Below are positions 6,667-22,113 of a stretch of 64,000 bases of DNA, piece by piece. Made by a program: the position numbers and the translations under genes. Each line of letters opens with the position of its first letter. Positions within the stretch are counted from its first letter, which is position 1. The notes below the pieces were generated by a model. It did not search any database, was not told the origin of the DNA, and saw nothing but the letters and a program-made list of their open reading frames with translations. The stretch is from Gilvimarinus algae (lineage in GTDB: Bacteria > Pseudomonadota > Gammaproteobacteria > Pseudomonadales > Cellvibrionaceae), in NCBI RefSeq assembly GCF_030518215.1, contig NZ_JAULRT010000062.1, positions 372,001 through 436,000 of the forward strand, given 5' to 3'.

Positions 6667-6740
6667 ACTCTGTCGGCACCTTAAAGAATAGTTCTACTAA
6701 GAAGTCGCGCCCTTTTCCCCATAGATCCAGCCGAGCGGAA

Positions 6741-6829
6741 GCCTGCTTTTTGAGGGTGCGCGCACAGGAAGTGCGCACAAGCATCGTCAGGCCATGGAAG
6801 GCCTGTCGATGCGGCCCTCAAAAACAGGC
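6741..6829. repeat. Long nested palindromic intergenic element
   Basis: Outer arms GCCTGCTTTTTGAGGG (6741-6756) and CCCTCAAAAACAGGC (6815-6829) pair with a single bulge. Nested inside are GTGCGCGCAC/GTGCGCAC, GCATCG/CGATGC and CAGGCC/GGCCTG. The 300-bp gene-free gap it occupies separates the accessory block from the urt operon. The structure is typical of dispersed REP/MITE-like elements and would fold strongly in RNA. There is no coding potential. Confidence 0.6.
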
Positions 6830-6877
6830 TGGAGAGAGGGAACCCCGCAGGGGCAGGGTCTCTGGGGCGCTCTCTTG

Positions 6878-6965: not shown

Positions 6966-7661
6966 TCAAACACTCAAATACCTCTGCACCAACTCTTCAT
7001 TCAACTCCTCCATCGCCCCGGTCGCTTCTACCTTGCCGCGCTCCATGATGTAAAAATGATCCGCGACTTTGCGGGCAAAAGGCAGCTTTTGCTCGACCAG
7101 CAAAACGGTGAGGCCGAACTCTTCATTTAGCCTGCGGATGACGTTGCCGATGTCGCGCACTACATTGGGCTGGATACCCTCGGTGGGTTCGTCTAGTATC
7201 AGCAGCTTGGGATCGAGCACAAGGGCGCGGCCGATGGCCAATTGCTGTTGCTGCCCACCGGAGAGGTCGCCGCCGCGGCGGTGCTTCATTTCTTTGAGTA
7301 CGGGAAACAGCTCGTAAATCAGCGCCGGTATCTGCTTTTTGCCATCGCTGCGTGCGCCAAGGGAGATTTTCAGGTTTTCCTCTACCGTGAGCAGGGGGAA
7401 AATCTCGCGGCCCTGAGGTACATAGCCAATGCCGGTGCGGGCACGGGCCTCGGTAGAGGCTTTGCTGATGTCTTTGCCGTTAAAGACGATGCTGCCGTCT
7501 TTGATGGGCAGCAGGCCGGTCACGCATTTGAGCAGGGTGGTTTTGCCCACGCCGTTGCGACCGATCAGGCAGCCGCAGCTGCCCTCGGGCAAATCCAGCG
7601 TCAGGTTCCAGAGGATATGGCTCTGGCCGTAGTACTGATTAATGGTTTGTATGTTTAGCAC
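6966..7661 (-). CDS. urtE: Urea ABC transporter ATP-binding protein UrtE
   Basis: One of two ATPases energising high-affinity urea import at the inner membrane. The start chosen is GTG 7661 (MLNIQTINQYYG), because GGAG lies seven bases upstream and the usual UrtE N-terminus is restored (231 aa); the frame stays open 15 codons further. Walker A is GRNGVGKTT, the signature is LSGGQQQQLAIGRAL, and Walker B is LLILDEPTEG followed by the H-loop-equivalent EQ of the branched-chain/urea subfamily. It is last in urtABCDE, 49 bases after urtD, and followed by a stem-loop. Confidence 0.95.
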   Translation of the reverse strand: MLNIQTINQYYGQSHILWNLTLDLPEGSCGCLIGRNGVGKTTLLKCVTGLLPIKDGSIVFNGKDISKASTEARARTGIGYVPQGREIFPLLTVEENLKISLGARSDGKKQIPALIYELFPVLKEMKHRRGGDLSGGQQQQLAIGRALVLDPKLLILDEPTEGIQPNVVRDIGNVIRRLNEEFGLTVLLVEQKLPFARKVADHFYIMERGKVEATGAMEELNEELVQRYLSV

Positions 7662-7710
7662 GGGTTTGCTCCAATCTTGTCTGGCGAGCTGCGGCGCCTG
7701 CCGCAACGCC

Positions 7711-8535
7711 TTATTCGCCCAAATACACCTCGATCACTTTGGGATCGTTTTGTACCTGATCCATGGTGCCCTCGGCGAGCACGGACCCCTGATGCAGCAC
7801 AGTCACCTGGCGGGCAATGGAGCGGACAAAGGCCATGTCGTGCTCCACCACAATCACTGAGTGTTTGCCCGCGAGCGAGGTCAGCAGCTCGGCGGTGCGC
7901 TCGGTTTCTTCGCCGGTCATACCCGCGACTGGCTCGTCCACCAGTAGCACCCGGGGGCTTTGCATCAACAGCATGCCGATTTCCAGCCACTGCTTTTGCC
8001 CATGGGAGAGGTTGCCGGCATCGTTGCTGCGCGAGCCCGCCAGGCCAACGGTGCCCAGCACCTCGTCAATGCGGTCGCGCTGCTCCCCGGTCAGTTCGCG
8101 GGTCAGGGTTTTCCAGAAGCGTTTGTCCCCGGCAGTGGCCAACTCCAGGTTTTCGTAGACGCTGAGCGCCTCAAAGACCGTGGGTTTTTGAAACTTGCGG
8201 CCGATACCGCCGCGGGCGATTTGGTGCTCGGACAGCTCCAGCAAATTGATTTGCTGGCCAAAATAAACGCTGCCTTCATCGGGTTTGGTCTTGCCGGTAA
8301 TCACGTCCATCATGGTGGTTTTACCGGCGCCGTTGGGGCCGATAATGCAGCGCAGCTCGCCTTCATCCACATAGAGGTTGAGGTTGTTGAGCGCTTTAAA
8401 GCCATCGAAGCTGACGGTCACTCCCTCAACGTAGAGAATGGGGCCGTGACTGGTATCCAGCGGGTGCCCAAAGTTGGGGTCCTTTTGCGGCAGCGCTTTG
8501 GTGCTCCAGTTGCGTGCGTGTTTGAACGGGTTCAT
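7711..8535 (-). CDS. urtD: Urea ABC transporter ATP-binding protein UrtD
   Basis: The 274-residue ATPase partner of UrtE. Walker A is GPNGAGKTT, the signature is LSHGQKQWLEIGMLL, and Walker B is VLLVDEPVAGM followed by VEHDM. The LSHGQ signature and the roughly 25-residue N-terminal extension before GPILYVEGVTV are characteristic of UrtD. Its ATG overlaps the urtC stop by four bases (ATGA), indicating translational coupling. Confidence 0.95.
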   Translation of the reverse strand: MNPFKHARNWSTKALPQKDPNFGHPLDTSHGPILYVEGVTVSFDGFKALNNLNLYVDEGELRCIIGPNGAGKTTMMDVITGKTKPDEGSVYFGQQINLLELSEHQIARGGIGRKFQKPTVFEALSVYENLELATAGDKRFWKTLTRELTGEQRDRIDEVLGTVGLAGSRSNDAGNLSHGQKQWLEIGMLLMQSPRVLLVDEPVAGMTGEETERTAELLTSLAGKHSVIVVEHDMAFVRSIARQVTVLHQGSVLAEGTMDQVQNDPKVIEVYLGE

Positions 8536-9650
8536 GGCGTGTCCTCCTCGCTCGCTTTGCTGGCTTTGCGGCGGGTAAAACGCCCGAGCAGGCCAACCAG
8601 CCCTTTGGGCAGTACCAGGGTCACCAGCACAAACAGCAGCCCCAGAGGGAAGAGCCAGGCCTCGGGGTAAAAAGTGGTAAAGATGGTTTTGCCGTAGTTG
8701 ACACTAAAGGCACCGACAATCGCGCCGTAGAGCGTACCGCGACCGCCGGTGGCGACCCACACCACCAGCTCAATGGAGTTGAGCGGCGAGAATTCACCCG
8801 GGTTGATAATGCCCACCTGCGGCACGTAGAGCGCGCCGGCAATGCCGGCCAGCACTGCCGAGAAAACAAACAGCCAGAGCTTGTAGGACTCGACCTGATA
8901 GCCGGAAAAGCGCGTGCGCGATTCGGCATCGCGTATGGAGACAATCACCCGGCCCGCGCGGGAAGTGACAATGTAGCGGCAGGCCAGGTACGCCACCATC
9001 AGCGCTATGCCCGAGGCGAGAAACAAACCGATGCGGGTGGAGTCGGCGGTGATGGAAAAGCCGAGAATGTCTTTAAAATCGGTGAGGCCGTTGTTGCCGC
9101 CAAAGCCCATTTCATTGCGGAAAAACGCCAGCATCAACGCGTAGGTGAGCGCCTGGGTGATAATGGCAAAGTAAACACCGGTCACGCGCGAACGAAAGGC
9201 CAGCCAGCCGAACACCCAGGCCAGCAGCCCCGGCACCACGATAATCATGAGCGCGGCAAACCAGAACATATCAAAGCCGTGCCAGTACCAGGGCAGCTCC
9301 TGCCAGTTGAGAAACACCATAAAATCCGGCAGTAACGGATCGCCGTATTTGCCCCGGTCGCCAATCTGGCGCATCAGGTACATGCCCATGGCGTAACCGC
9401 CGAGCGCAAAGAAAGCGCCGTGGCCCAGCGAGAGAATACCGGCGTAGCCCCAGATGAGATCGAGCGCCAGTGCCAGCAAGGCGTAGCAGAGAAACTTGCC
9501 CAGCAGGGTGACGGTAAAGGTGGAAACGTGCAGCGGTGAGCTTTCGGGCACCGCCAGGTTTAAAATGGGCACCAGTATGCAGGTGAGGGCGAGAATCCCC
9601 AGCACCAGCATACCGCCCTTGTCACTTGTTAAGAGTCGTTGTGTCAACAT
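8532..9650 (-). CDS. urtC: Urea ABC transporter permease UrtC
   Basis: A 372-residue inner-membrane permease of the branched-chain amino acid (LivM) type with about ten hydrophobic segments. Typical features are LIWGYAGILSLGHGAFFALG and the coupling region RVIVSIRDAESRTRFSGYQ that docks on the ATPases. GEFSPLNSIELVVWVATGG and the basic C-terminal tail also match UrtC. It pairs with UrtB to form the urea channel. It lies 78 bases after urtB and overlaps urtD by four bases. Confidence 0.95.
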   Translation of the reverse strand: MLTQRLLTSDKGGMLVLGILALTCILVPILNLAVPESSPLHVSTFTVTLLGKFLCYALLALALDLIWGYAGILSLGHGAFFALGGYAMGMYLMRQIGDRGKYGDPLLPDFMVFLNWQELPWYWHGFDMFWFAALMIIVVPGLLAWVFGWLAFRSRVTGVYFAIITQALTYALMLAFFRNEMGFGGNNGLTDFKDILGFSITADSTRIGLFLASGIALMVAYLACRYIVTSRAGRVIVSIRDAESRTRFSGYQVESYKLWLFVFSAVLAGIAGALYVPQVGIINPGEFSPLNSIELVVWVATGGRGTLYGAIVGAFSVNYGKTIFTTFYPEAWLFPLGLLFVLVTLVLPKGLVGLLGRFTRRKASKASEEDTP

Positions 9651-9728: not shown

Positions 9729-11375
9729 CTAGTCTGCCGCCGCCCGGCCTTTCTGCGGGAAGAGGCCCTTGGGTTTTTTCTGAATAAACAGAATCAGCAA
9801 CACGAGAATCAGCACCTTGGCCAGAACCGCGCCGGCGTAAGGCTCGAGAAATTTATTGACGATACCGAGGCCCATGGCGCCGACCAGCGTGCCCCAGAGG
9901 TTGCCCACACCGCCAAAGACCACCACCATAAACGAGTCGATGATGTAGGCCTGACCCAGGTTGGGGCCAACGTTGGTCAACTGCGACAGCGCCACCCCGG
10001 CAATGCCGGCAATGCCCGAGCCCAGGCCAAAGGTGAGGGCGTCTACCCAGCTGGCGCGCACACCCACGGCGCGTGCCATGGGGCGGTTTTGCGATACGGC
10101 GCGCACCTTAAGGCCGAGCGAGGTTTTCTTGAGAATGGCCAGCAGGGCAAAAAACACCATCAGGCCAAACAGCAGGATGTACAGGCGGTTAAAGGTAATG
10201 GAAAAGGCCGGGTTGATTTGCAGCGAGCCGCTCATCCACTCCGGCAAGCTTACCGCGCGGTTCAGCGGCGAGAAAATGCTGCGCGCCGCCTGCTGCAAAA
10301 TCAGGCTGATACCAAAGGTCGCCAGCAGGGTTTCCAGCGGCCGCCCGTAGAGAAACTGAATCACACCGCGCTCAATGGCAATGCCCACCAAACCAGCGAC
10401 GACAAAGGCGGCGGGTATGGCCATAAACAAACTGTATTCAATCTGGTTGGGAAACACTTGCTGTATCACCCAAGTGGTGTAGGCGCCAATCATCATCAGC
10501 TCGCCGTGGGCCATGTTGATCACGCCCATGACCCCAAAGGTAATGGCAAGGCCAATGGCCGAGAGCAAAAACACCGAGCCCAGACTCAGGCCAAAAAAGA
10601 CGTTTTCGCCCAGGCGAAACATTTTCAGCCGGCCTTCAATGGAGTCCAGCGCGCGCTGGGCCTCGATGCGTACGTCTTTATCCGAATCGTAGTCGGCCCG
10701 CTCCTGCAGGGGGCCGCGCACTTCGGGAATCAGCGAGCCACGCAACTGCTTGACGGCGGCCAGCCGCTCCGTGGCATTTTCGCTTTCTAGTTGGTAGAGG
10801 GCGATGGCGGTGTCCATGGCCTCGCGCACCCGGCTATTTTGCTCATCGCTTTTTAGCTCGTTCAGCAAGGTGGCGGTTTGCTCGTCGCCACCGTCGGTAA
10901 TCAGCCGGGTGACGGCGCTGAGGCGCACCTCGTCATTCGGGTGGCTCAGGTTCAGTTGTGCCAGCAGGGTGTGTAGCTGACTGCGCAATTTGTTGTGAAT
11001 GGGAATGCGCTTGAGGCGTCCGAGATCGGTGCCGGTGATGGGCTCGCTGGTTTGGGCGTCGAGAATCTGGTTGTCGGCGGTTTCAATCACTACGCGTTCG
11101 CTGTCGTCGCGGGTGACTTTGAGGTTGCCGTCCTGCAGGGCCTGCAGAATGTCGGCGCTGCGCTCATGCTTGAGCGCGGCAATGGCCGCTACGGTATCCA
11201 CGCGTTTGCTCAGGCTGCCCTGAGCCACTTCGTTCACCAGCTGCTCAAAGGTGGCGCTGGCGGGTTCGCTTTGGGCGAGCACTGGCGTGCTCAATGCCAC
11301 AAGCGTTGCTATGGCCAGTGCTGAGCACAGGCGCATCAATACTTGTAATCGTTCCATGGTCGTCGTCACTATCAT
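9729..11375 (-). CDS. urtB: Urea ABC transporter permease UrtB
   Basis: A 548-residue permease. It has a signal peptide (about 1-34), then a long extracytoplasmic helical region (about 35-255) with HEAT-like repeats around KHERSADILQAL and SDKDVRIEAQRAL. A LivH-type membrane domain follows, with ITFGVMGVINMAHGELMMIG and SQNRPMARAVGVRASWVDAL. This N-terminal extension is usual for proteobacterial UrtB. ATG 11357 is an alternative start; neither has a good ribosome site. It is separated from urtA by a strong hairpin at 11412-11435, which probably lowers its expression relative to the binding protein. Confidence 0.93.
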   Translation of the reverse strand: MIVTTTMERLQVLMRLCSALAIATLVALSTPVLAQSEPASATFEQLVNEVAQGSLSKRVDTVAAIAALKHERSADILQALQDGNLKVTRDDSERVVIETADNQILDAQTSEPITGTDLGRLKRIPIHNKLRSQLHTLLAQLNLSHPNDEVRLSAVTRLITDGGDEQTATLLNELKSDEQNSRVREAMDTAIALYQLESENATERLAAVKQLRGSLIPEVRGPLQERADYDSDKDVRIEAQRALDSIEGRLKMFRLGENVFFGLSLGSVFLLSAIGLAITFGVMGVINMAHGELMMIGAYTTWVIQQVFPNQIEYSLFMAIPAAFVVAGLVGIAIERGVIQFLYGRPLETLLATFGISLILQQAARSIFSPLNRAVSLPEWMSGSLQINPAFSITFNRLYILLFGLMVFFALLAILKKTSLGLKVRAVSQNRPMARAVGVRASWVDALTFGLGSGIAGIAGVALSQLTNVGPNLGQAYIIDSFMVVVFGGVGNLWGTLVGAMGLGIVNKFLEPYAGAVLAKVLILVLLILFIQKKPKGLFPQKGRAAAD

Positions 11376-11459: not shown

Positions 11460-12758
11460 TTACTCGGTTGCGCCAACGCATTTTTTGGTTTTGGTGTTGT
11501 AGTTACCGCACTTCAGACCGGGCCAGTCAGACTTAAGGTCTTTGGAGCCTTCCAGGTAGTCAGACCAGGCGTCGCCGGGGACCAGGCCATCGGTTTCCCA
11601 AACGGTGAGGAACTGACCGTCTTCCTGAATTTCACCAATCAGTACCGGCTTGGTGATGTGGTGGTTGGGCAGCATTTCGCTGGTGCCACCGGTCAGGTTG
11701 GGGACCTTAACGCCAACAATGGCATCGATCACGGCGTCGGCGTCGGTGGTGCCGGCTTTCTCAACCGCTTTGACCCACATGTTGAAGCCGATGTAATGCG
11801 CTTCCATCGGATCGTTGGTGACGCGCTTCTCGTCGCCGATAAACTCCAGCCACTTGTCGATAAAGGCGCTGTTCACATCGGTGTCGACGCTCATGAAGTA
11901 GTTCCAGGCGGCCATGTGACCCACCAGCGGTTTGGTGTCTATGCCCGAGAGCTCTTCTTCACCCACGGAGAAAGCGACCACTGGAATGTCTTCAGCCGAC
12001 AGGCCCTGGTTGCCCAGCTCGCGGTAGAACGGCACGTTGGCGTCGCCGTTGATGGTGGAGACCACGGCAGTTTTCTTGCCTTGGCTACCAAAGCGCTTGA
12101 TGTCGGCAACGATGTTCTGCCAATCGGAGTGACCGAAAGGCGTGTAGTTGATCATGATGTCCGCTTCGGCAACGCCTTTGGATTTGAGGTAGGCCTCAAG
12201 AATCTTGTTGGTGGTGCGCGGATAGACGTAGTCGGTACCGGCGAGTACCCAGCGCTTGACGTCCATTTCGTTCATCAGGTAATCAACGGCGGGAATCGCC
12301 TGCTGGTTGGGTGCCGCACCGGTGTAGAACACATTGCGCGAGGATTCTTCACCCTCGTACTGTACGGGGTAGAACAACAGACCGTTCAGCTCTTCCACCA
12401 CTGGCAGTACGGATTTGCGCGATACCGAGGTCCAGCAACCGAAAATGGCGTCTACTTTTTCTTGCGACAGCAGCTCGCGGGTTTTTTCAGCAAACAGCGG
12501 CCAATTGGAGGCCGGGTCGACCACAACGGGCTCCAATTTCTTGCCCAACAAGCCACCTTTTTTGTTTTGCTCTTCAATCAGCATGAGCATGGTGTCTTTC
12601 AAAGTGGTCTCTGAAATGGCCATGGTGCCGGAAAGCGAGTGCAGAACGCCCACTTTAATGGTGTCTTCTTCTTGCGCGGATGCCGTTAGACTGGCCAAAG
12701 CCAGTGTACAGGCAGAGCCCAGTACCCCTATTTTTTTTGCGATGGATTTTAGCTTCAT
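11460..12758 (-). CDS. urtA: Urea ABC transporter substrate-binding protein UrtA
   Basis: A 432-residue periplasmic urea receptor. A Sec signal peptide (about 1-28, ending TASAQ) precedes IKVGVLHSLSGTMAISETTL, and the ligand region contains CWTSVSRKSVLPVVEELNGL and VQYEGEESSRN, both diagnostic for UrtA rather than amino-acid receptors. GGAG lies eight bases before the ATG. It begins the transporter part of the regulon, downstream of the GntR gene on the same strand. I found no sigma-54 sequence directly before it, so read-through from the GntR promoter or a sigma-70 promoter is likely. Confidence 0.95.
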   Translation of the reverse strand: MKLKSIAKKIGVLGSACTLALASLTASAQEEDTIKVGVLHSLSGTMAISETTLKDTMLMLIEEQNKKGGLLGKKLEPVVVDPASNWPLFAEKTRELLSQEKVDAIFGCWTSVSRKSVLPVVEELNGLLFYPVQYEGEESSRNVFYTGAAPNQQAIPAVDYLMNEMDVKRWVLAGTDYVYPRTTNKILEAYLKSKGVAEADIMINYTPFGHSDWQNIVADIKRFGSQGKKTAVVSTINGDANVPFYRELGNQGLSAEDIPVVAFSVGEEELSGIDTKPLVGHMAAWNYFMSVDTDVNSAFIDKWLEFIGDEKRVTNDPMEAHYIGFNMWVKAVEKAGTTDADAVIDAIVGVKVPNLTGGTSEMLPNHHITKPVLIGEIQEDGQFLTVWETDGLVPGDAWSDYLEGSKDLKSDWPGLKCGNYNTKTKKCVGATE

Positions 12759-12952
12759 GGTTTAGTCTCCGTTGGTTTGAAGGTATGACTGCCTTTATGC
12801 TGACGAATCATTGTCTTAAAGAGTCCTTGTTTTTAGTCGGCCGCGCGGACAACTGTTGAGCAACCCATTTTGAGAAAACGCACCCTTGACTCACTGTTAA
12901 AGGGAAAAGTGGATCGACTCGACTTTTACCTCCTAGCGTTTCCCGGAACGTT

Positions 12953-12991
12953 TTAACGGTACTGCTTAACGGTACTGCTTAACGGTACTGC
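12953..12991. repeat. Three perfect 13-bp tandem repeats
   Basis: TTAACGGTACTGC occurs three times head-to-tail (12953-12965, 12966-12978, 12979-12991). It lies between the end of the GntR gene and urtA, 195 to 233 bases upstream of the urtA ATG. Phased direct repeats suit a regulator-binding array, but recent slippage duplication is equally possible. The rest of 12759-13048 holds no feature I can assign with confidence. Confidence 0.7.
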
Positions 12992-13048
12992 GTCGATGGT
13001 TAAACTGTCCGAACGGCCTACTGTCTTACTGCTCCCTGAATTTCTTCG

Positions 13049-13741
13049 TTAATTTATGGATGTTTTTGGAATGCCCCTGGCTTCATGAAGCATGTGTATT
13101 GTGATTTTGCGAACCTCAGCCTGACTTTCTTCAATGTGGGTTTTGATCAGCCTTTGAGCCTCGTCGGTGCGTCGTTTTATAATGCTTCGAAGGATTTTGG
13201 CGTGTTCTTGGTAAGTCGCTTCGATCCGGACAGCTTTGGTGAAGTCAATTTGCCGAATGATTCGCAGTCTTTCAGTGATGTTTTGATGAACATCCACCAT
13301 TTCCCCATTGCCGCTTGCCTTGATCAAGTCGCAGTGAAACGTCTCGTCCATTAATCTCACCTTCGCTCCGTCGGTCAGGCGATCTTTGGCTGAAACCAGC
13401 CAGAAATCTTTTAAACTCTCCAGCCCGGATTGAACCTGCATCTCACACAGCTTTCGCACCGCTGCCTGCTCTAAAATAATTCTAAGCTCATAGAGCTGAT
13501 CAAACTTGTGAAAGTCAAAAGGTTTGACCTGCCAGCCAGCCCTGAACAAAACCTCAACAAACCCTTCGCGCTGCAGGCGAGAGAGCGCCTCGCGTACGGG
13601 GGTTCTGCTCGCCTGCAAACGCTCCGCAACTTCATTTTCTGTAAACCTGTCTCCGGGCAGTAAAACAAAGTCAAAAATGTCTTGTTTCAAGGCCTGGTAG
13701 ATGCGATCTGAAACGCTCTGTCGATCGGTTGCGGTGCTCAC
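13049..13741 (-). CDS. GntR-family (FCD) transcriptional regulator of the urea genes
   Basis: The N-terminal winged helix (DRIYQALKQDIFDFVLLPG to TENEVAERLQASRTPVREAL) and C-terminal all-helical FCD ligand domain (about 85-220) place it in the FadR/VanR branch of GntR. The frame can be extended to a TTG at 13801, but that TTG lies inside the -24 element of a sigma-54 promoter, so the first transcribed start is GTG 13741 (230 aa). An 18-bp palindrome in its leader is repeated before allophanate hydrolase, which suggests autoregulation and control of the catabolic genes. A urea-pathway metabolite is the likely ligand, by inference. Confidence 0.88.
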   Translation of the reverse strand: MSTATDRQSVSDRIYQALKQDIFDFVLLPGDRFTENEVAERLQASRTPVREALSRLQREGFVEVLFRAGWQVKPFDFHKFDQLYELRIILEQAAVRKLCEMQVQSGLESLKDFWLVSAKDRLTDGAKVRLMDETFHCDLIKASGNGEMVDVHQNITERLRIIRQIDFTKAVRIEATYQEHAKILRSIIKRRTDEAQRLIKTHIEESQAEVRKITIHMLHEARGIPKTSIN

Positions 13742-13761
13742 AAATTGCTCGTCTTGAATAT

Positions 13762-13779
13762 CATCATGTATGCAAGATG
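13762..13779 (-). promoter_or_regulatory. Probable GntR operator before the GntR gene
   Basis: CATCATGTATGCAAGATG is an imperfect palindrome matching 16 of 18 bases of the perfect palindrome at 19431-19448. It begins six bases downstream of the -12 element and so overlaps the expected transcription start, a position for repression. FCD-type GntR proteins often bind TTGTATACAA-like sites. Confidence 0.6.
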
Positions 13780-13784
13780 TCTTG

Positions 13785-13800
13785 AGCAGGTTCTGTGCCA
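13785..13800 (-). promoter_or_regulatory. Sigma-54 (-24/-12) promoter of the GntR-urt genes
   Basis: Read on the minus strand, TGGCACAGAACCTGCT has GG and GC dinucleotides separated by exactly ten bases and a complete TGGCAC -24 box. RpoN dependence would tie expression to nitrogen limitation through NtrC. A possible enhancer half-site pair (GCACCC...ATGCGC, about 13897-13913) lies about 115 bases upstream but is a weak match. Confidence 0.75.
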
Positions 13801-13899
13801 AGGATTGAAAAGTGCCGTGTAAGTCGCTAAGTGGTTCATACGTTTAAAGTTTTTCCTGGGCGTTAGTGGTTGTCAGCAGGGGCCTATAGCGGGGTTGCA

Positions 13900-13939
13900 C
13901 CCAATTGATGCGCACCCCGGTGCAGTGCTTCAATTGGGG
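13900..13939 (-). terminator. Nested stem-loop after urea carboxylase
   Basis: CCCAATTGA (13900-13908) pairs with TCAATTGGG (13930-13938), enclosing an inner GCACC/GGTGC palindrome. It begins immediately after the urea carboxylase stop codon, where a terminator is expected. It lacks a T-run on the minus strand, so it may protect mRNA rather than terminate transcription. Confidence 0.45.
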
Positions 13940-16900
13940 TCAGAGAGGCTCCAGTACCATAAGAATGTCACCGGCATTGACCGGCTTTCCGGCCGTGCAA
14001 TGCACGGCGCTGATCTTCGCTTTGCGATCCGCTGCGACGGAAAACTCCATTTTCATTGCCTCCACAATCAACAGTGGTTGGTCCTGCTCGACCTCTTGCC
14101 CAGGCTCGACCAATAGCTTCCAGATGTTGCCGCTGATATCCGCGGTTATCGCATGGCCATCGATATCATCCGGGGCCGGCGCGGCTGAGGCGTTTAAGGC
14201 CGCTTCGACTTGTTTGGCTTCATCGTTTTTCCACAGCGCCACTTCTTGATCAAACGCTGTTTGTTGCTTCGCCTGGAACTCTTCAATGCTGGCGGCGTTA
14301 TCTCGCAAAAATTGCTCGTGCTCAGCGATGTCAAACCACGTGTCTTCGATCTCGATATTCAGTCGTCCCTCGCGGAAGGCTTCACGCATTTGGGTCAGCT
14401 TGTCTTCGCTGACCGGGTAGTACCGAATTTGGTCAAAGAAGCGCAAAAACCACGGTTGGCCGTTTTGGAACATGGGGTGTTTTAAGTGTTTGTTCCAAAT
14501 GGGCAAGGTGCGTCCCACCAGCTGATAACCGCCGGGTGAGTCCATGCCGTAGATGCACATATACACTCCACCAATGCCGACGGTGCCTTCGGCGGTGTAA
14601 GTGCGCGCGGGGTTGTATTTGGAGGTCAGTAGTCGGTGGCGCGGGTCAATGGGTACAGCGCAGGGCGCGCTCAGGTAAACATCCCCCAGGCCCAAAATCA
14701 TGTAACTGGCGTTAAACAGTATCTCGCGCACCTCGGCGATTGAGTCCAAGCCGTTAATGCGCCGCATAAACTCGGTGTTGCTGGGTAGCCAGGGAGCCGT
14801 GTCGCGCACCGACTGACGGTACTTAGTCACGGCCTCTAAGGTGGCGGAGTCTTCAAACGCCATGGGTAAATGAATAACCCGGCTGGGAACGCGCATCTGA
14901 TCGACCGGGGGTAAGCGGTGCTCAATGGCCAGCAGCTGCTCTACCAGATCGCGTTGGTGCAGTACGCGGCTGTCGTAATTGACCTGAAGCGAGCGCACGC
15001 CGGGAGACAGCTCAATGATGCCGTCAATGGGCTCGGCTTTTAACGCTTCCATCATGGCGTGCACGCGCAGACGAAAGCGCAGGTCCATCACCAGAGGGCC
15101 GTATTCCATCAGAAGGTATTTGTCGCCAGCCTGGCGGTATACCACTTCGGGGCGCCCCTCCGCTTCGGGCAGAGACGCGAGAATACAGGCGGACAAATCG
15201 TGATCGGGGGCGTGAATGGGAAAATCAGTGGCAGGCGCTGGTGCTGCCAATTGCTCAATTGATTTGTCCTGGGCATGTTCCAGGGCCAATGCAGAATCAA
15301 AGCTTAAGGCTTTAAAGCGCAGTTTATCGCCGGGTTTTACCTGGCCGACTTTCCACAGTTCGGCTTTTACGATGGTTACCGGGCAGACAAAGCCGCCCAG
15401 GCTGGGGCCGTCTTTGGTGAGGATAACGGGCATGTCGCCGGTAAAATTAATCGATCCCACCGCGTACTCGGTGTCGTGAATGTTGGATGGGTGCAGGCCG
15501 GCTTCGCCGCCGTCGCTGCGGGTCCAACTGGGTTTAGGACCGTTTAAGCGAATGCCCAGGCGGTTAGAGTTGTAGTGCACCTCCCAGGCAGTATCAAAGA
15601 AAGTGTCAATCGATTCCTGGGTAAAGAAGTCGGGTGCACCATGGGGGCCATAGATAACGCCGATTTCCCACTCTCGGGGGCCGTCATCGGTCTGTTGCGC
15701 GTAGGCGGGAATGAGCTCCGCCGGGCAGGGCGAGGGTGGGTGCGTGGGGGCGGCCGTAGTGCAGGCGGGCAGGCTTGGGTCTGAAATCCGCAGCATGTCG
15801 GCACCGCGTAGCACGCGACCGGCATGGCCGCCAAACTGACCCAGGGCAAATGTCGAGCGACTTCCCAGGTATTCGGGGACATCAATGCCGCCGCGCACAG
15901 CGATGTAGAGCCGGCAGCCACTGGTGGTTTTTCCGGTTTTTAGGGTTTGCCCTGCCTTCACGTTTACCGGTTGCCACTGCGCGAGTGGTTCGCCATCGAG
16001 CTCAGCCAGCACGCCGCCGCCTGTGAGGGCAATTACCGTGTCGGTGTGAAACTTTAACGTTGGGCCGACAATGGTGCACTCTATTCCTGCGGCACTGTCG
16101 TGGTTGCCGACAATCCGGTTGGCCAAGCGAAACGCGTAATCATCCATGGGGCCCGAGGGCGGTACGCCAATGCTCCAGTAGCCAGCGCGCCCCGGGTAAT
16201 CCTGCACGCTGGTGTAGGTGCCCGGTTGCATCACCTCGATCACCGGCGCTCGATAGGCGAAGCTGGCAAGCTTATTGGTGGCCACATCGGCCTTGGCAAA
16301 GAAATCGGATGCGACAATCTGGCGGAGGTAATCGATGTTTGTGGCAATGCCGGCGATGCGGGTTTCACCTAAGGCCGCGCTTAACTTAGCAATGGCATCG
16401 GCACGGTCGTTTCCTTTGACGATGATTTTGGCAATCATCGGGTCGTAGTGAGGTGATACCTCGGTGCCGGTATCGACCCAGGTGTCCACCCGAGCCCAAT
16501 CGGGGAAGTGCACATCGGTCAGGGTGCCTGGGGAGGGTTGGAAATCCCGCACGGCATCTTCGGCGTAGACCCGCACTTCAATGGCGGCGCCACTGGGTTC
16601 AATGGCTTGGCTTAAGTCCGGTGCCTGACCGGCGGCGGTGAGAATCATCCACTCGACCAGGTCCACGCCGGTGCAGGCTTCGGTAATGGGATGCTCCACT
16701 TGCAGACGGGTGTTGACCTCTAAAAAGTAAAAATCGTCGCGCGCTGGATCGTAAATGTATTCCACTGTGCCTGCCGAGCGGTATTGCACGGCTTCGCCAA
16801 GACTGACTGAGGCGGCCAGCAAGCGTTCGCGGGTGTCGGCGGGTAAGTTGGGTGCGGGGGTCTCTTCTACCACCTTTTGGTTACGCCTTTGCAGCGAGCA

Positions 16901-17581
16901 GTCGCGCTCGCCTAAAGCCAATACCTTGCCTTTGCCATCGCCAAAAATTTGTACCTCGACGTGGCGGGCGTTGTCGACAAAGCGTTCCAAAAAAACGCCG
17001 CTGTCACTAAAAAAATTTTGCCCCAAGCGTTTGACGCTTTCGTAGGCTTGTTCTAGCTCAGCCTCGCTGTCGCAACGGGTCAGTCCAATGCCGCCGCCCC
17101 CAGCGGTGCTTTTTAGCATGACCGGGTAGCCGATTTTGGCGGCCGATGTTTTTGCTTGCGCCAATGAATCCAGTAGCCCGGTGCCGGGAGTCAGTGGCAC
17201 GCCTGCGCGCTCGGCAATGTCTCGCGAGGTGTGTTTTAAGCCAAACTGACGAATCTGATCGGGTGTCGGGCCACAAAAAGCGATGCCGGCCGCCTCGCAC
17301 TGCTCGCAAAAGTCTGCGTTTTCCGAGAGAAAGCCGTAGCCCGGAATAATCGCCTGGGCACCGGTTTGTTGTGCGGCTTTGAGAATTTTGGCGGTGTCCA
17401 GATAGCTTTCTTGAGCGCTTTGCCCGCCCAGGGCGACGGCTTGGTCCGCGGCGCTGACGTGGGCGCTGTTGCGGTCCGCGTCGGAGTATACGGCTACGGA
17501 CTTGATGCCCATGGCTTTTAATGTGCGGGCAATACGAACGGCAATCTCACCGCGGTTGGCTATAAGAACGGTGGTTAACAT
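13940..17581 (-). CDS. Urea carboxylase (biotin-dependent)
   Basis: ATP- and biotin-dependent carboxylation of urea to allophanate in the cytoplasm. The ATG at 17581 is chosen, with GGAG six bases upstream, giving 1213 residues, the normal length; the frame runs 28 codons further. Domains: biotin carboxylase (1-450, with KSTAGGGGIGLT and EVNTRLQVEHPITEAC), carboxyltransferase of two KipI/KipA-like cyclophilin-fold halves (about 470-1110, with VGIGGVYMCIYGMDSPGGYQ), and a C-terminal biotinyl domain with EAMKMEF. It follows allophanate hydrolase by 47 bases. Some family members carboxylate guanidine instead. The adjacent urea transporter and the absence here of carboxyguanidine deiminase (DUF1989) genes favour urea. 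Confidence 0.94.
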   Translation of the reverse strand: MLTTVLIANRGEIAVRIARTLKAMGIKSVAVYSDADRNSAHVSAADQAVALGGQSAQESYLDTAKILKAAQQTGAQAIIPGYGFLSENADFCEQCEAAGIAFCGPTPDQIRQFGLKHTSRDIAERAGVPLTPGTGLLDSLAQAKTSAAKIGYPVMLKSTAGGGGIGLTRCDSEAELEQAYESVKRLGQNFFSDSGVFLERFVDNARHVEVQIFGDGKGKVLALGERDCSLQRRNQKVVEETPAPNLPADTRERLLAASVSLGEAVQYRSAGTVEYIYDPARDDFYFLEVNTRLQVEHPITEACTGVDLVEWMILTAAGQAPDLSQAIEPSGAAIEVRVYAEDAVRDFQPSPGTLTDVHFPDWARVDTWVDTGTEVSPHYDPMIAKIIVKGNDRADAIAKLSAALGETRIAGIATNIDYLRQIVASDFFAKADVATNKLASFAYRAPVIEVMQPGTYTSVQDYPGRAGYWSIGVPPSGPMDDYAFRLANRIVGNHDSAAGIECTIVGPTLKFHTDTVIALTGGGVLAELDGEPLAQWQPVNVKAGQTLKTGKTTSGCRLYIAVRGGIDVPEYLGSRSTFALGQFGGHAGRVLRGADMLRISDPSLPACTTAAPTHPPSPCPAELIPAYAQQTDDGPREWEIGVIYGPHGAPDFFTQESIDTFFDTAWEVHYNSNRLGIRLNGPKPSWTRSDGGEAGLHPSNIHDTEYAVGSINFTGDMPVILTKDGPSLGGFVCPVTIVKAELWKVGQVKPGDKLRFKALSFDSALALEHAQDKSIEQLAAPAPATDFPIHAPDHDLSACILASLPEAEGRPEVVYRQAGDKYLLMEYGPLVMDLRFRLRVHAMMEALKAEPIDGIIELSPGVRSLQVNYDSRVLHQRDLVEQLLAIEHRLPPVDQMRVPSRVIHLPMAFEDSATLEAVTKYRQSVRDTAPWLPSNTEFMRRINGLDSIAEVREILFNASYMILGLGDVYLSAPCAVPIDPRHRLLTSKYNPARTYTAEGTVGIGGVYMCIYGMDSPGGYQLVGRTLPIWNKHLKHPMFQNGQPWFLRFFDQIRYYPVSEDKLTQMREAFREGRLNIEIEDTWFDIAEHEQFLRDNAASIEEFQAKQQTAFDQEVALWKNDEAKQVEAALNASAAPAPDDIDGHAITADISGNIWKLLVEPGQEVEQDQPLLIVEAMKMEFSVAADRKAKISAVHCTAGKPVNAGDILMVLEPL

Positions 17582-17628
17582 TGAAAACTCCGTGTTAGTG
17601 AATTCTTTACAGTGCAATGGAAAAAGGC

Positions 17629-19410
17629 TTAGCTGGCCCGACGCGCATTGATGTAAGCGCGCCAACCGCCGAACTCGGTAATGTCTTCGGCGTCTGTTGT
17701 GGCGAGGCTTTCACAGATAAAGCCCTTGACCTGACGGCCGTCGACCAGCGTGAGTGTGCCAATGCCTAAAGGCGCGGGTATGAGTGCGACGAAGGAGCCA
17801 AACTGATCAATGGGCATATCCCACAGTTCGACAATGATGGGTTTGCCATCCTGCGCTTTTACCAAACCCGGTTTGGGTGGTGTGGTTCCGGGCAGCGCGA
17901 ACAGGCGGTAATCCCCACTGGTGTGAGTGGTCTCCACCAGGCGCGCCTGACGCTCGGTGAGCTGACTGTTCAGAGGCATGCCGGTTAAGTGAGCACCGAC
18001 CACGGCCAGGCGAATGTGACCTTGAGGCGGTGTGTCAGGCGTTGTCGCAGTGGGTAGTGCCAAGCCAGTTGCGCCGCGCGTACCTTTTAGGCTTTGCTGC
18101 CAGCGCTTGCCAAATTCCCCGAGCGAGGTGTCTTGCCAGGCAGCGCCAATCAAAGTGATACCAAAGGGCAGGCCGTCGTCGCGCATACCGGCGGGCAGTG
18201 CCAGGGCGCTGCAGTCGGCCAAATTAACGAAATTGGTCCAGGTGCCCAACTGGCTGTTGACCGCGACTGGATCGGCCTCGACTTCGGCAATGGTGGGCAA
18301 GCGTGGCGCGGTCGGTACCAGCAGAGCGTCAACGGTGGCCATTGATTGCTGAATACTGCGCACGAGCTCGGCGCGTCGGTATTCGGCGCGGTAGGCGTCG
18401 GTTGCGCTAAAATTTTGCGCCTGGTCGATAATGCCGCGCACGACCGGGTTCATTTTATCGGCGTGCTCGTGCATAAATTCACCTACGGCGGCATGGCGCT
18501 CGGCCACCCAGGGTCCGCCATACAGTAGCTGAGCGAGGGTTTGCATGGCGCTAAAGTCCATCGGCACCAGTTCTACACCTTGCTGCTGCAACTGGTTTAG
18601 GGTTTTGCGCCAGGCTTTTTCTTGCTCTGCATCATCGAAGAAGGGCAGGTCGGTGGGAATGCCAAACCGCGGTTGGGTCGGCAACAGGCGCGCCGGGTAG
18701 GGTTGCTTGCGGCTGAAGCCGTCGGCCGGGTCAAAGCCTTCGATAATCCCGGCTACCGCTTCGGCGTCTTCTACGGTCAGGGCAAACACCGAGGTACAAT
18801 CCAGACTTTTGCACGCCGGTACCACGCCGTTAATGCTAAAGCGCCCTTTGGTGGGTTTGAGACCGACAATATTGTTAAAGCCTGCCGGTACGCGGCCCGA
18901 ACCCGCGGTGTCAGTGCCAATGCTAAAAGGCACCAGACCGCGCGCAACGGCCACCGCCGACCCCGAGCTCGAGCCGCCGGACACGTACTCTGGATTAAAA
19001 CTGTTGGGGACGGCGCCGTAGGGAGAACGCGTCCCCACAAGCCCGGTGGCAAATTGATCCAGGTTTGTTTTGGCCAGCAAGATGGCTCCAGCTGCCTTGA
19101 GCCGGGCGACAAGAGTCGCATCTTTGTTGGCGGTGTAGGCAAAGGTCGGGCAGGCGGCGGTGGTGGGCAGGCCGGCCGCATCGATATTGTCTTTTAGTAC
19201 AAAGGGTATGCCGTAAAGAGGTTGCTCGTCAGCGGTGGTGAGCTCATCAATCTGTTGCTGCAGTTCATCGCTGGAGAGTATATAAATCCAGGCGGGATCG
19301 TCAGGATCGAGAGCGCCCCGTAGCGCCTGGAGTGCATCGGCTGCATTGAGTGAATCCGTGTGATAGGCGCGCTGCCATTCGCCGATGGTCCAGCCTAGAG
19401 TGTTAGCCAT
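17629..19410 (-). CDS. atzF: Allophanate hydrolase
   Basis: Hydrolyses allophanate to ammonium and CO2, completing ATP-dependent urea breakdown. The 593-residue protein has an amidase-signature domain (about 1-440) with Lys73 in VLKDNID, the cis-serine in GGSSSGS (near 148) and nucleophile Ser171 in DTAGSGRVPAGF. The C-terminal domain (about 465-590, LPGTTPPKPGL onward) matches the extra domain of AtzF/DUR1,2-type hydrolases, which acts on the carboxylated intermediate. It is first in the leftward regulon, behind a sigma-54 promoter and palindromic operator. The symbol follows the Pseudomonas enzyme; uca/dur names are also used. Confidence 0.93.
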   Translation of the reverse strand: MANTLGWTIGEWQRAYHTDSLNAADALQALRGALDPDDPAWIYILSSDELQQQIDELTTADEQPLYGIPFVLKDNIDAAGLPTTAACPTFAYTANKDATLVARLKAAGAILLAKTNLDQFATGLVGTRSPYGAVPNSFNPEYVSGGSSSGSAVAVARGLVPFSIGTDTAGSGRVPAGFNNIVGLKPTKGRFSINGVVPACKSLDCTSVFALTVEDAEAVAGIIEGFDPADGFSRKQPYPARLLPTQPRFGIPTDLPFFDDAEQEKAWRKTLNQLQQQGVELVPMDFSAMQTLAQLLYGGPWVAERHAAVGEFMHEHADKMNPVVRGIIDQAQNFSATDAYRAEYRRAELVRSIQQSMATVDALLVPTAPRLPTIAEVEADPVAVNSQLGTWTNFVNLADCSALALPAGMRDDGLPFGITLIGAAWQDTSLGEFGKRWQQSLKGTRGATGLALPTATTPDTPPQGHIRLAVVGAHLTGMPLNSQLTERQARLVETTHTSGDYRLFALPGTTPPKPGLVKAQDGKPIIVELWDMPIDQFGSFVALIPAPLGIGTLTLVDGRQVKGFICESLATTDAEDITEFGGWRAYINARRAS

Positions 19411-19425
19411 TTATGCTCCTGTAAA

Positions 19426-19453
19426 AATACCATCTTGTATTCAAGATGGTATT
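19426..19453 (-). promoter_or_regulatory. Perfect palindromic operator before allophanate hydrolase
   Basis: AATACCATCTTG (19426-19437) and CAAGATGGTATT (19442-19453) are exact inverted repeats around a 4-base centre. The inner 18 bases match the site in the GntR leader at 16 of 18 positions. It lies across the expected start of transcription from the adjacent sigma-54 promoter and 16 bases before the ATG. It is the best candidate binding site of the neighbouring GntR regulator. Confidence 0.75.
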
Positions 19454-19454
19454 C

Positions 19455-19470
19455 AGCAGGTTCTATGCCA
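19455..19470 (-). promoter_or_regulatory. Sigma-54 (-24/-12) promoter of the urea catabolic genes
   Basis: On the minus strand TGGCATAGAACCTGCT shows GG and GC ten bases apart. It differs from the promoter at 13785-13800 by one base in 16. The duplicated promoter-operator module indicates joint nitrogen control of catabolism and of regulator/uptake genes. Confidence 0.7.
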
Positions 19471-19644
19471 GCGCAGGATTATTTTCTCAGATCGCGTTGC
19501 AGGCCTTTATGGGCTGATGTTTGGCGTCGACATACGGGATAGCTCTAAAGCGTGAGTTACAACAGCTATTGCCCTAAAACGGTTCTTTGTCAGCTTGGAT
19601 GCGTTAATATTGGGCGTCGAGTTTTTCTGGTCCAGGGAGTGTTG

Positions 19645-20850
19645 ATGAGAAATTGGTGGTCTGTTTACGCCGCTATGCCGGCCAATATCTGGGTGTTATT
19701 TTTTACCTTGGCATTGGTGATGACCGCTGTGCCCTTAATGGTATTGGTCAGCGGTTTGATTGGCGCCGAGCTGGCGCCTACGCCCAACTTGGCAACCTTG
19801 CCGCTGGCGTGCGTGGTGATTGGCACGGCGCTGATGACATTGCCTGCAGCCTTTGTGGTGCGCCTCAAGGGACGCCGCTTTGGCGGCTTTCTCGGTATCG
19901 CCTGCGCGTTTGCCGGAGCCTTGGCGGGCGTGGCGTCCACCGAGTTGGCGAGCTTTGGTTTTTTGTTGCTCGGTTCAGTGTTGATGGGTGTGGGCATGGC
20001 GTTCTTTCAGCAGTTCCGCTTTGCCGCCATTGAGAGCTTGCGCAATCCGGCCGATGCGGGTCCTGCGGTTTCATTGATTATGTTCAGTGGCATTGTCTCT
20101 GCGTTGATTGGCCCGGAGCTCGGCGTCTGGGGGCTTCAATGGCCGGGGTTTGCGAACTACAGTGGCTCGTTTGTGATACTCGCGGGGCTGGTACTCACCG
20201 CTGCGGTCGTTTACAGCCGCTTTAGCAATCCGTTAGGGACGCAGGGCGACGATGGTGGCAGCGTGAGGCCGCTGGGAGAGATTGTGTGCCAGCCTGTGTT
20301 TTTGGTGGCGGTGGCCGCGGCGGCCATTGGCTACGGCGTTATGAGCTTTTTAATGACGTCAACACCCATCAGTATGCACGTGCTCCACGGTCACGCCTTG
20401 GGCGAGGCCAAGTGGGTTATCCAGAGTCATTTGCTGGCGATGTTTATGCCCTCGCTGTTTTCCGGTGTGTTATTGCGGCTCTTCGGTGCCGGCAAATTAA
20501 TGCTGGCTGGCTGCGCGTTGTATTTGGCAGTTTTGCTGATCGCCACGGCGGGGCATGAAGTGGTTCACTACTGGTGGGCGCTGGTATTGCTGGGTATCGG
20601 TTGGAATTTTCTGTTTTTGGCCGGCACCACGTTACTGCCAGCGGCCTATCGCGGTGCGGAGCGGTTTAAAACGCAGGCGGTGAATGATTTTTCCGTGTTT
20701 GCGATTCAGGCGGCGGCGTCTTTGTCGGCCGGCTGGGTGTTGTACCGCTTTGGCTGGGCGCTGCAAGTGTGGTCTTGCCTGGTGCCCGTGCTGGCGCTGC
20801 TGCTGGTGTCGGCGTTTTACGGCTGGAGCCGGTCCGGGCGCAGCGCCTGA
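19645..20850 (+). CDS. MFS transporter, substrate unknown
   Basis: The ATG at 19645 is chosen because GGGAG (19635-19639) lies five bases upstream; the open frame begins 31 codons earlier inside the divergent promoter region. The 401-residue protein has about twelve hydrophobic segments in two halves and an A-loop-like VRLKGRRFGGFLG between segments 2 and 3, typical of major facilitator carriers. It is divergent from the urea catabolic genes and shares their intergenic region (19411-19644), so co-regulation is possible. The substrate cannot be read from the sequence. Confidence 0.85.
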   Translation: MRNWWSVYAAMPANIWVLFFTLALVMTAVPLMVLVSGLIGAELAPTPNLATLPLACVVIGTALMTLPAAFVVRLKGRRFGGFLGIACAFAGALAGVASTELASFGFLLLGSVLMGVGMAFFQQFRFAAIESLRNPADAGPAVSLIMFSGIVSALIGPELGVWGLQWPGFANYSGSFVILAGLVLTAAVVYSRFSNPLGTQGDDGGSVRPLGEIVCQPVFLVAVAAAAIGYGVMSFLMTSTPISMHVLHGHALGEAKWVIQSHLLAMFMPSLFSGVLLRLFGAGKLMLAGCALYLAVLLIATAGHEVVHYWWALVLLGIGWNFLFLAGTTLLPAAYRGAERFKTQAVNDFSVFAIQAAASLSAGWVLYRFGWALQVWSCLVPVLALLLVSAFYGWSRSGRSA

Positions 20851-20862
20851 GTGCGTTGCGGT

Positions 20863-21453
20863 TTAGCGCCGCGGCAGATTGGACAATACATCCTTAACGG
20901 CTGAGTCAATCAGCCGTTGGCGGTCATCGGGCTGATCGCTGGTGATCTTTTGCTGGTAAACCCCCTGCCAGATGGCCTGATTTTTTTCGCGGTCTACCAC
21001 GTCAATATTCAGTGCGCCTGTGTAGGTGATGCGGGTGTTGCCGCCCTCGCGCTCCTGTGGCAGTGGGCCGTAGAGCGATGCCCATGAGTGGTAGTAGCCA
21101 TAGCGGTCCGGGGTGATGGGGATGGCGTTGCTAAAAGACTCCAGTTGATTGTCCACCTCGGCGCGGTAGTTGATAAACAAGTCGCCGCCGCTGGCAACAT
21201 GTTGGTAACCTTTTTTCTCTAGCGCTTCGATGATTGCCCGGTCGAATTGCTCGCGGTAACGGGCGGTAGCGTCATCGTAGAGCAAAAGTTCAGGTGTGTC
21301 GGTCAGCGAAAAGCTTTGATACTGACTAAAGTCAACGGCCTTATTGTAATGCGCCTGCACTTTGGGTGGAGGTGTGGTTTGGCAGGCGGCAAGGGCGAGC
21401 AAACCAAGAGCAGCGCAAAGCAGCGTAAAGTGGCGGCGAATGGCGAACATCAT
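20863..21453 (-). CDS. DUF4136 lipoprotein
   Basis: A 196-residue protein with a lipoprotein signal peptide whose lipobox is LAAC (Cys near 24). The mature part carries the DUF4136 pattern YNKAVDFSQYQSFSL, a central YGYYHSW segment and ALNIDVVDREKNQAIWQG near the C-terminus. Members are envelope lipoproteins of unknown role. It is a paralogue of the next gene upstream and is separated from it by 54 bases, so they probably form an operon. It converges on the MFS gene with a 12-base gap. Confidence 0.85.
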   Translation of the reverse strand: MMFAIRRHFTLLCAALGLLALAACQTTPPPKVQAHYNKAVDFSQYQSFSLTDTPELLLYDDATARYREQFDRAIIEALEKKGYQHVASGGDLFINYRAEVDNQLESFSNAIPITPDRYGYYHSWASLYGPLPQEREGGNTRITYTGALNIDVVDREKNQAIWQGVYQQKITSDQPDDRQRLIDSAVKDVLSNLPRR

Positions 21454-21507: not shown

Positions 21508-22113
21508 TTACTTGGCCTCGGCGCTAACGCGGGTGGGATAACGCTCGAAGATCTGGCGCACAGCGGTGTGAATTGCGGCGCGGGGGTTTTCCATGGCCTC
21601 TTCGCTCAACTTGCCCTCGGCAATGCCTTCCCAAATCAGCTGTTCTTCTGCGGCATCCACCACATCGATATTGAGCGTGCCGACTTTATAGTGGCGGGTT
21701 TCGGTGTCTGAGCCGTAGAGCGGAAAGCCCATGTACAGGCCCGAGCGATAGCCGTAGTAACCATAGGAGGCCGTCACTGAGGGAGTGGTGCGGACATCGG
21801 TGCGGTTTTCGGTATTGGAGAAAAAGTTCACCAGAAGGTCGGGGTTGGACTCGGAATAGGTGTAACCCAGCGCCTCCATTTCTTCACGCGCGGCGGCTTT
21901 AAAGTGCGAGGTCACCAGCGTGGAGTAACCGTTTTTATCCGTGCCTAGAGGGTCGACAAAACCAAAAGTTTGGTAGGCGCTGAAATCGGCCGAGCGGTCG
22001 TAATCACTGCGAATGGTCGGGCCGCTGGTGCAGCCTGCCAGCAGCACCAGGGCTGTAAGCAGTGCGAATAAGGGTGTTAACCGGTTGGAATTGGTCTTAC
22101 CAGTGAAAAGCAT
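21508..22113 (-). CDS. DUF4136 lipoprotein (paralogue)
   Basis: A 201-residue protein with lipobox LLAGC. It shares with its neighbour the YDRSADFSAYQTFGF start, a Tyr-rich centre (SYGYYGYRSG) and LNIDVVDAAEEQLIWEG. The two genes look like a tandem duplication that has diverged considerably. The aspartate after the acylated Cys is absent, so outer-membrane sorting is expected by the +2 rule. The function is unknown. Confidence 0.85.
   Translation of the reverse strand: MLFTGKTNSNRLTPLFALLTALVLLAGCTSGPTIRSDYDRSADFSAYQTFGFVDPLGTDKNGYSTLVTSHFKAAAREEMEALGYTYSESNPDLLVNFFSNTENRTDVRTTPSVTASYGYYGYRSGLYMGFPLYGSDTETRHYKVGTLNIDVVDAAEEQLIWEGIAEGKLSEEAMENPRAAIHTAVRQIFERYPTRVSAEAK

Follow-up and report, generated by a model that had tools for sequence, protein, structure and literature searches.

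The gene cluster for allophanate hydrolase (AH), urea carboxylase (UC) and the urea transporter Urt in Gilvimarinus algae raises the question of why the same pair of control elements, a sigma-54-type promoter followed by a palindrome, stands in it twice, and which signals such a module would bring together. The cluster lies in a stretch of 64,000 nucleotides (contig NZ_JAULRT010000062.1, positions 372,001 to 436,000; the window in what follows), with both modules and all cluster genes on the minus strand in the order first module, AH, UC, second module, gntR and urtA to urtE, as named by profile family models (Table 1). A sequence-only reading had proposed that RpoN activation under nitrogen limitation and local repression by the GntR protein jointly govern urea use, with autoregulation of gntR. 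Comparison with related genomes suggests that each module is probably a two-input AND gate, which would require nitrogen limitation and derepression together, and that its target is the final reaction common to several routes, AH, along with UC and probably the Urt transporter.

The two -24/-12 elements, TGGCACAGAACCTGCT before gntR and TGGCATAGAACCTGCT before AH, differ in 1 of 16 bases, lie exactly where they had been placed, keep the GG-N10-GC spacing and show 1 and 2 mismatches to TGGCACNNNNNTTGCW. The 18-mers behind them, CATCTTGCATACATGATG (13779-13762) and CATCTTGAATACAAGATG (19448-19431), are identical at 16 of 18 positions. The gap between promoter and palindrome measures 5 and 6 bases rather than the 6-7 that had been claimed, and a palindrome length of 18 bp, given for both copies, applies to the gntR side but falls short of the longer AH-side repeat. 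When start sites are predicted by counting from the C of the -12 element (19456 and 13786), they fall inside both palindromes, and one operator family appears to overlap both sigma-54-type promoters, as had been proposed.

Conservation carries most of the argument. In a first comparison, which took in the host genome and 57 relatives (58 in all), 10 of the relatives have an orthologue of the GntR protein at 53% identity or more; the AH gene is linked to it in all ten, and promoter and operator stand before AH in nine, the exception being G033. When named genomes were searched with an alignment of the GntR protein, 434 relatives were matched, the best 80 of which were examined; 7 of these 80 loci appear to coincide with relatives of the first set, and since the loci are mutually related, counts over them are not independent events. 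AH was present in 72 loci, 68 of which extend over at least 150 bp of upstream DNA, and with the orthologous GntR/FCD regulator in place all of these but two (L093 and L120) have the module before AH, 66 of 68. Over both strands of the 80 loci, 77 modules were found, compared with 2 in the reversed sequences: 66 before AH, 4 before gntR, 1 before UC, 5 elsewhere on the plus strand and 1 elsewhere on the minus strand. Five of the eight loci without AH are cut short near gntR; the other three (L061, L062, L068) are not, and L062 carries the module before UC. Furthermore, when 390 genomes of the order were searched with a strict joint pattern, 11 matches appeared in 9 genomes and none in the reversed control; nine of the 11 lie before AH and two before gntR. 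All nine genomes encode the GntR orthologue (3 already known, 6 others at 51-61% identity), and nine of 390 is a lower bound, as the pattern misses real copies (G008 and G025 score 0, and both have the module).

The window by itself makes only a modest case against chance. Within it, the sigma-54 pattern, two mismatches being allowed, matches 36 times against 48 expected, and a sigma-54-like element joined to any palindrome occurs 5 times against 0.8 expected, with a maximum of 3 among 30 random sequences. Over the whole genome of the host, perfect matches to the palindrome pattern and to the 16-mer are each confined to the two module sites. Loosened searches gave 3 matches compared with 2 in the reversed control for the palindrome (up to 3 mismatches; the third match is one of the two module sites on the other strand) and 8 compared with 4 for the 16-mer (up to 2 mismatches), and are not clearly above these controls. 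It is therefore the conservation across genomes, and not the statistics of the window, that places the module beyond chance.

Across the 66 loci, conservation of the promoter GG and GC holds by construction, the scan having required both; three further promoter positions read T, C and T in 66 of 66, and the spacer is variable. The operator consensus is approximately AATACcAwCTTGtATACAAGaTGGTATT, located 4-16 bases behind the promoter; the distribution of these distances has maxima at 6, 10 and 13. A close copy on the gntR side occurs in 4 of the 10 relatives (G002, G003, G007 and G026), and in the G031 locus (L060) a poorer one stands farther off, 286 bp upstream. Judged by this distribution, the AH copy is ancestral and widespread and the gntR copy is specific to the Gilvimarinus/Marinimicrobium lineage; the module described earlier as duplicated is indeed present twice, but its two copies are unequal.

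What the module controls was approached by searching 11 complete sets of genome sequence with the regulator for AH, UC and urease. Exactly one AH (E up to 1e-100) is present in all 11, always beside the regulator. A second enzyme above the urea-carboxylase cut-off is encoded elsewhere in ten (exception G041), and in five (G002, G003, G007, G033 and G054) the AH cluster lacks UC and this second enzyme is the only one. Between AH and gntR, G054 still has 48 residues from the start of UC (L052, 11023-11166), a trace of UC loss. In the ten second-carboxylase loci, of about 19.5 kb each, neither AH nor the operator was found. Seven of them were scanned for riboswitches; Guanidine-I is present in all seven, and Guanidine-II as well in five. 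The proteins of one such locus (L162) include UAAP1 and UAAP2, the carboxyguanidine deiminase, along with a carboxylase-linked binding protein.

A single alignment column separates the two kinds of carboxylase, with Asn in 63 of 63 rows from the clusters (58 distinct sequences) and Asp in all ten second-locus enzymes. Asp has been described in a review as marking guanidine carboxylases and Asn urea carboxylases, with guanidine routed via allophanate to AH (PMC12186494). The column presumably corresponds to this published substrate-selecting residue, and the carboxylase of the window's cluster looks like the urea type; that it might be a guanidine enzyme was rejected on account of its Asn. Control of the window operon by a guanidine riboswitch was also considered and rejected, Rfam at the gathering threshold giving only a TwoAYGGAY RNA in the window. 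Because the second loci lack AH and each genome has one AH, the single AH would have to serve the guanidine route too.

Among the 80 loci, UC and urtA are each present in 61, and AH stands with the regulator without UC in 16, some of them cut by contig ends. The urease alpha subunit is encoded in 6 of the 11 genomes; the cluster contains UC in all five genomes without urease and in one of the six with it (Fisher p 0.015, a value that ignores relatedness), and among the 11 the window's genome alone combines urease with a cluster UC. In addition, the module extends to loci linked to biuret. A Sinobacteraceae metagenome-assembled genome (L087) has an extra module before a gene resembling biuret amidohydrolase, whose 273 bits fall short of the 370-bit cut-off. 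Four Burkholderiales loci (L079, L096, L107, L108) have one behind gntR in which the first base is C instead of T, followed in L107 by ABC-permease-like genes. AH also carries the module in the three of these four loci that reach far enough upstream. UC was not matched in the four, their sole Urt matches are ABC subunits of about 30% identity, and each has two BiuH-like genes; in L107, one of the two scores 420 bits, above the BiuH cut-off. L107 (500-18200) further combines AH and its two BiuH-like genes with an oxalurate-family HpxZ match, two ABC systems and the same regulator, and its cluster is a possible biuret/triuret pathway. Urea use, as the function first assigned to the module, fits the urea-type UC and the linked urt genes but is too narrow, as the module is kept without UC or with biuret hydrolases. 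For the same reason urea is not the obvious signal, and allophanate is common to the urea, guanidine and biuret routes.

The regulator consists of a winged helix and an FCD domain, both matched above cut-off, and no effector domain of the HutC branch is among its reported domain matches. Its structure model (pLDDT 88) has PmiR, VanR and TM0439 among its nearest folds in Foldseek, matches that confirm an FCD-GntR fold and do not identify a ligand. All of 44 orthologues share D132, H136, H180 and H202, and in the alignment with TM0439 these positions fall on D and H residues, which suggests that the metal-site residues of the metal-binding FCD group are present. The metal ligands of TM0439 are His134, His174 and His196, and carboxylic acids have been argued to bind beside the metal in such pockets (PMC7674646); the regulator's residues presumably correspond to this numbering. 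The residues of the FCD pocket are of a kind that binds carboxylates next to a metal, and allophanate is a carboxylate, while urea has no such group. Allophanate is thus the leading candidate for the ligand of the repressor, a proposal put at slightly below an even chance.

From the sequence elements, their conservation and the gene content we infer the following sequence of events. Sigma-54 polymerase would bind the -24/-12 element and stay closed under nitrogen excess, until phosphorylated NtrC, as the most likely activator, opens the DNA under nitrogen limitation. A dimer of the FCD-type GntR protein, whose binding to the palindrome is predicted from the co-occurrence of regulator and module, would sit over the start and block transcription until its ligand arrives. 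Allophanate, from whichever route, would lift the repressor, and AH would remove allophanate and close the loop. The ancestral copy of the module would drive AH and UC; in most species gntR lies behind these genes and would be co-transcribed with them, and the second module of Gilvimarinus and Marinimicrobium would provide gntR, and perhaps urt, with a gate of its own, possibly a looser one, its operator being less perfect. Through this copy the repressor would feed back on itself, and the proposed autoregulation is in keeping with a linked gntR gene that itself carries the module. The genes for using the nitrogen of urea, and probably that of guanidine, should then be expressed solely when scarcity of nitrogen coincides with the presence of their substrate. 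More broadly, this FCD-GntR family could be a dedicated allophanate sensor, and the single AH a metabolite-gated exit for nitrogen from urea, guanidine and biuret in gamma- and betaproteobacteria, a view whose chances are nearly balanced; the guanidine side would be switched upstream by riboswitches and the last step by the repressor.

Several observations weigh against this mechanism. In Saccharophagus sp. K07 (L093, 7900-8230; G033), the operator before AH is kept and the sigma-54 element is unrecognisable; in L120, the -12 element is broken and reads TTGAT; and operators with a poor -12 element occur in L061 (before UC) and L068 (before gntR). Moreover, the operator would not always cover the start equally, because its distance from the promoter varies over 4-16 bp. 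Two further points of this kind are the lack of a good NtrC box at the window's AH promoter and the activating members of the FCD group, which are considered below with the alternatives they favour.

The same AND gate could operate with a repressor that senses urea or another substrate instead of allophanate, as the first assignment to urea use would suggest. The usual presence of UC and urtA in the cluster, together with the urea-type carboxylase of the window, would agree with this; the 16 loci and five whole genomes in which AH and regulator stand without UC, the biuret hydrolases beside the regulator in the four Burkholderiales loci, and pocket residues suited to a carboxylate argue against it and make it unlikely.

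With respect to the activator, the host genome encodes RpoN (236 bits) and a full NtrC protein (764 bits in profile searches). In the relatives, GCACCA, the half-site of the Pseudomonas NtrC site GCACCA-N3-TGGTGC (PMC12977541), is the top enriched hexamer upstream of the sigma-54 element; of 57 non-redundant regions, 45 contain it, where 7.7 would be expected. The NtrC 17-mer was present in 19 of 69 regions when 3 mismatches were allowed (1.4 expected) and in 46 when 4 were allowed (about 9 expected), the 69 including redundant regions and two from the window. In the window, however, the AH promoter has no GCACCA within 390 bp (the nearest is at -391) and its best box has 5 mismatches; the box on the gntR side is doubtful because of its overlap with an inverted repeat behind UC. 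These sites give NtrC good support in the family as a whole but not at the window's AH copy, and the idea of RpoN control under nitrogen limitation is strengthened by the relatives and left weaker at this one promoter. An enhancer-binding protein other than NtrC might drive the sigma-54 promoters, at least in this organism, and further AAA+ activator-like proteins are encoded in the genome with scores below the cut-off of the NtrC model. Given the enriched half-sites, the NtrC protein itself and the NtrC control of urea genes reported in Burkholderia cenocepacia (PMC5491218) and Pseudomonas stutzeri (PMC8443478), this is quite improbable, the neighbourhood having been covered as far as the genes listed in Table 1.

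The GntR protein might also act as an activator or co-activator, as FCD-GntR proteins can, CitO being an example (PMC4746285). The operator overlaps or sits just behind the predicted start, a place that fits blockage, and the site at which HutC exerts its repression overlaps the sigma-54 element; activation by the GntR protein is therefore very improbable. Coincidental resemblance to sigma-54 and operator sites has next to no probability, since single matches of either kind are common but the joint module, at 77 to 2 in the 80 loci and 11 to 0 in the 390 genomes, recurs at the same genes.

Whether urtA has a module of its own was considered as well; none was found in the window, and before urtA in the named loci there was a single weak match, in L063, with 9 of 14 operator positions. 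The extra promoter might be explained by an intrinsic terminator separating UC from gntR. The inverted repeat there, however, folds hardly better than shuffled sequences (z -1.0) and has no T run, and a consensus scan of 12700-14000 gave no minus-strand terminator. The start codon of UC is uncertain, the TIGR02712 match beginning at residue 31.

Table 1. Positions of the control elements and cluster genes in the window
Feature	Position	Strand	Basis
Sigma-54-type -24/-12 element of the AH gene, TGGCATAGAACCTGCT	19455..19470	-	Pattern match; kept before AH in 66/68 named loci
Putative operator, 28-bp palindrome, 13/14 pairs, over predicted start ~19444	19426..19453	-	Palindrome analysis; 66-locus consensus
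Allophanate hydrolase (AH)	17629..19410	-	TIGR02713, 822 bits (cut-off 511)
Urea carboxylase (UC)	13940..17665	-	TIGR02712, 1949 bits (cut-off 1304)
Possible NtrC box of gntR promoter, 3 mismatches	13896..13912	-	Box scan
Sigma-54-type -24/-12 element of gntR, TGGCACAGAACCTGCT	13785..13800	-	Same place in G002, G003, G007, G026
Putative operator, 18-bp palindrome, 7/9 pairs, over predicted start ~13774	13762..13779	-	Palindrome analysis
gntR, GntR-superfamily FCD (FadR-subfamily) regulator, GTG start	13049..13741	-	PF00392 + PF07729
urtA, urea ABC transporter binding protein	11460..12758	-	TIGR03407
urtB	9729..11375	-	TIGR03409
urtC	8532..9650	-	TIGR03408
urtD	7711..8535	-	TIGR03411
urtE	6966..7706	-	TIGR03410

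The surroundings of the cluster hold some additional features. A divergent MFS transporter gene (19552-20850, plus strand) begins about 80 bp from the AH promoter, and beyond it are two adjoining DUF4136 proteins on the minus strand (20863-21453 and 21508-22113); in Gilvimarinus xylanilyticus (L043), the region past AH encodes a pair of comparable length, 196 and 197 aa. The TwoAYGGAY RNA (RF01731, 46.5 bits, gathering 43) occupies 6733-6837 on the plus strand, just past the 3' end of urtE and opposite to it. Between gntR and urtA, GCAGTACCGTTAA occurs three times, perfectly and head to tail, on the minus strand (12953-12991; 3 matches against 0.08 expected).

The closest known counterpart is HutC, a repressor of the GntR superfamily: on the hutU promoter of Pseudomonas, the stretch that it protects overlaps the sigma-54 site, and the likeness extends to an NtrC-activated nitrogen-source operon (PMC12977541). 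The differences lie in the genes, which are AH, UC and urt in the window, in the operators, with a CTTGTATACAAG core compared with TGTA-N2-TACA, and in the regulators, the window's having an FCD domain and HutC belonging to the HutC branch. HutC carries a UTRA domain. By this analogy, the sigma-54/GntR logic is not new in kind. The same genes with a GntR gene noted have been described as an atzF-uca-gntR-urtABCDE cluster in Ectopseudomonas guguanensis, with gntR adjacent (PMC13296017), and as AH-GntR-urt in Pseudomonas pseudoalcaligenes (PMC6368324); the available text of both reports describes neither promoter nor operator. NtrC control has been predicted for atzF in Rhizobiales and for urea transporter genes in other orders (PMC5343134), and sigma-54 control for genes labelled urea carboxylase (PMC12316311), with no mention of a GntR operator at these promoters in the parts available. 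The guanidine-I and -II riboswitch operons share the route through allophanate to AH, and the second loci described here are of this kind; in the review AH stands behind a guanidine-II riboswitch, whereas here it is absent from the ten second loci and found at the GntR module (PMC12186494). Allophanate is also the inducer for the same chemistry in the yeast DAL/DUR system (PMC4589623), although the regulators there, Dal81 and Dal82, are unrelated. In the PMC open subset, which does not cover subscription journals, and within the text available, neither joint sigma-54 and GntR control of AH/UC nor the breadth of the module on AH nor an allophanate-sensing GntR protein was found. The novelty seen in the dual circuit by the sequence-only reading accordingly stands for AH/UC within that literature, but not for the logic, which is known from HutC at hutU.

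To conclude, an unnamed GntR family, as represented by the best 80 of 434 relatives, gains a testable operator, targets and a candidate ligand, and its operator spacing, with peaks at 6, 10 and 13 bp, offers natural variation across the family. It would be a second case, beside HutC and hut, of a GntR-superfamily repressor acting on a sigma-54 nitrogen promoter. Finally, the arrangement suggests how a riboswitch-controlled guanidine pathway without an AH of its own may work: its last enzyme is encoded elsewhere, behind a gate that would open on nitrogen starvation together with the common intermediate.

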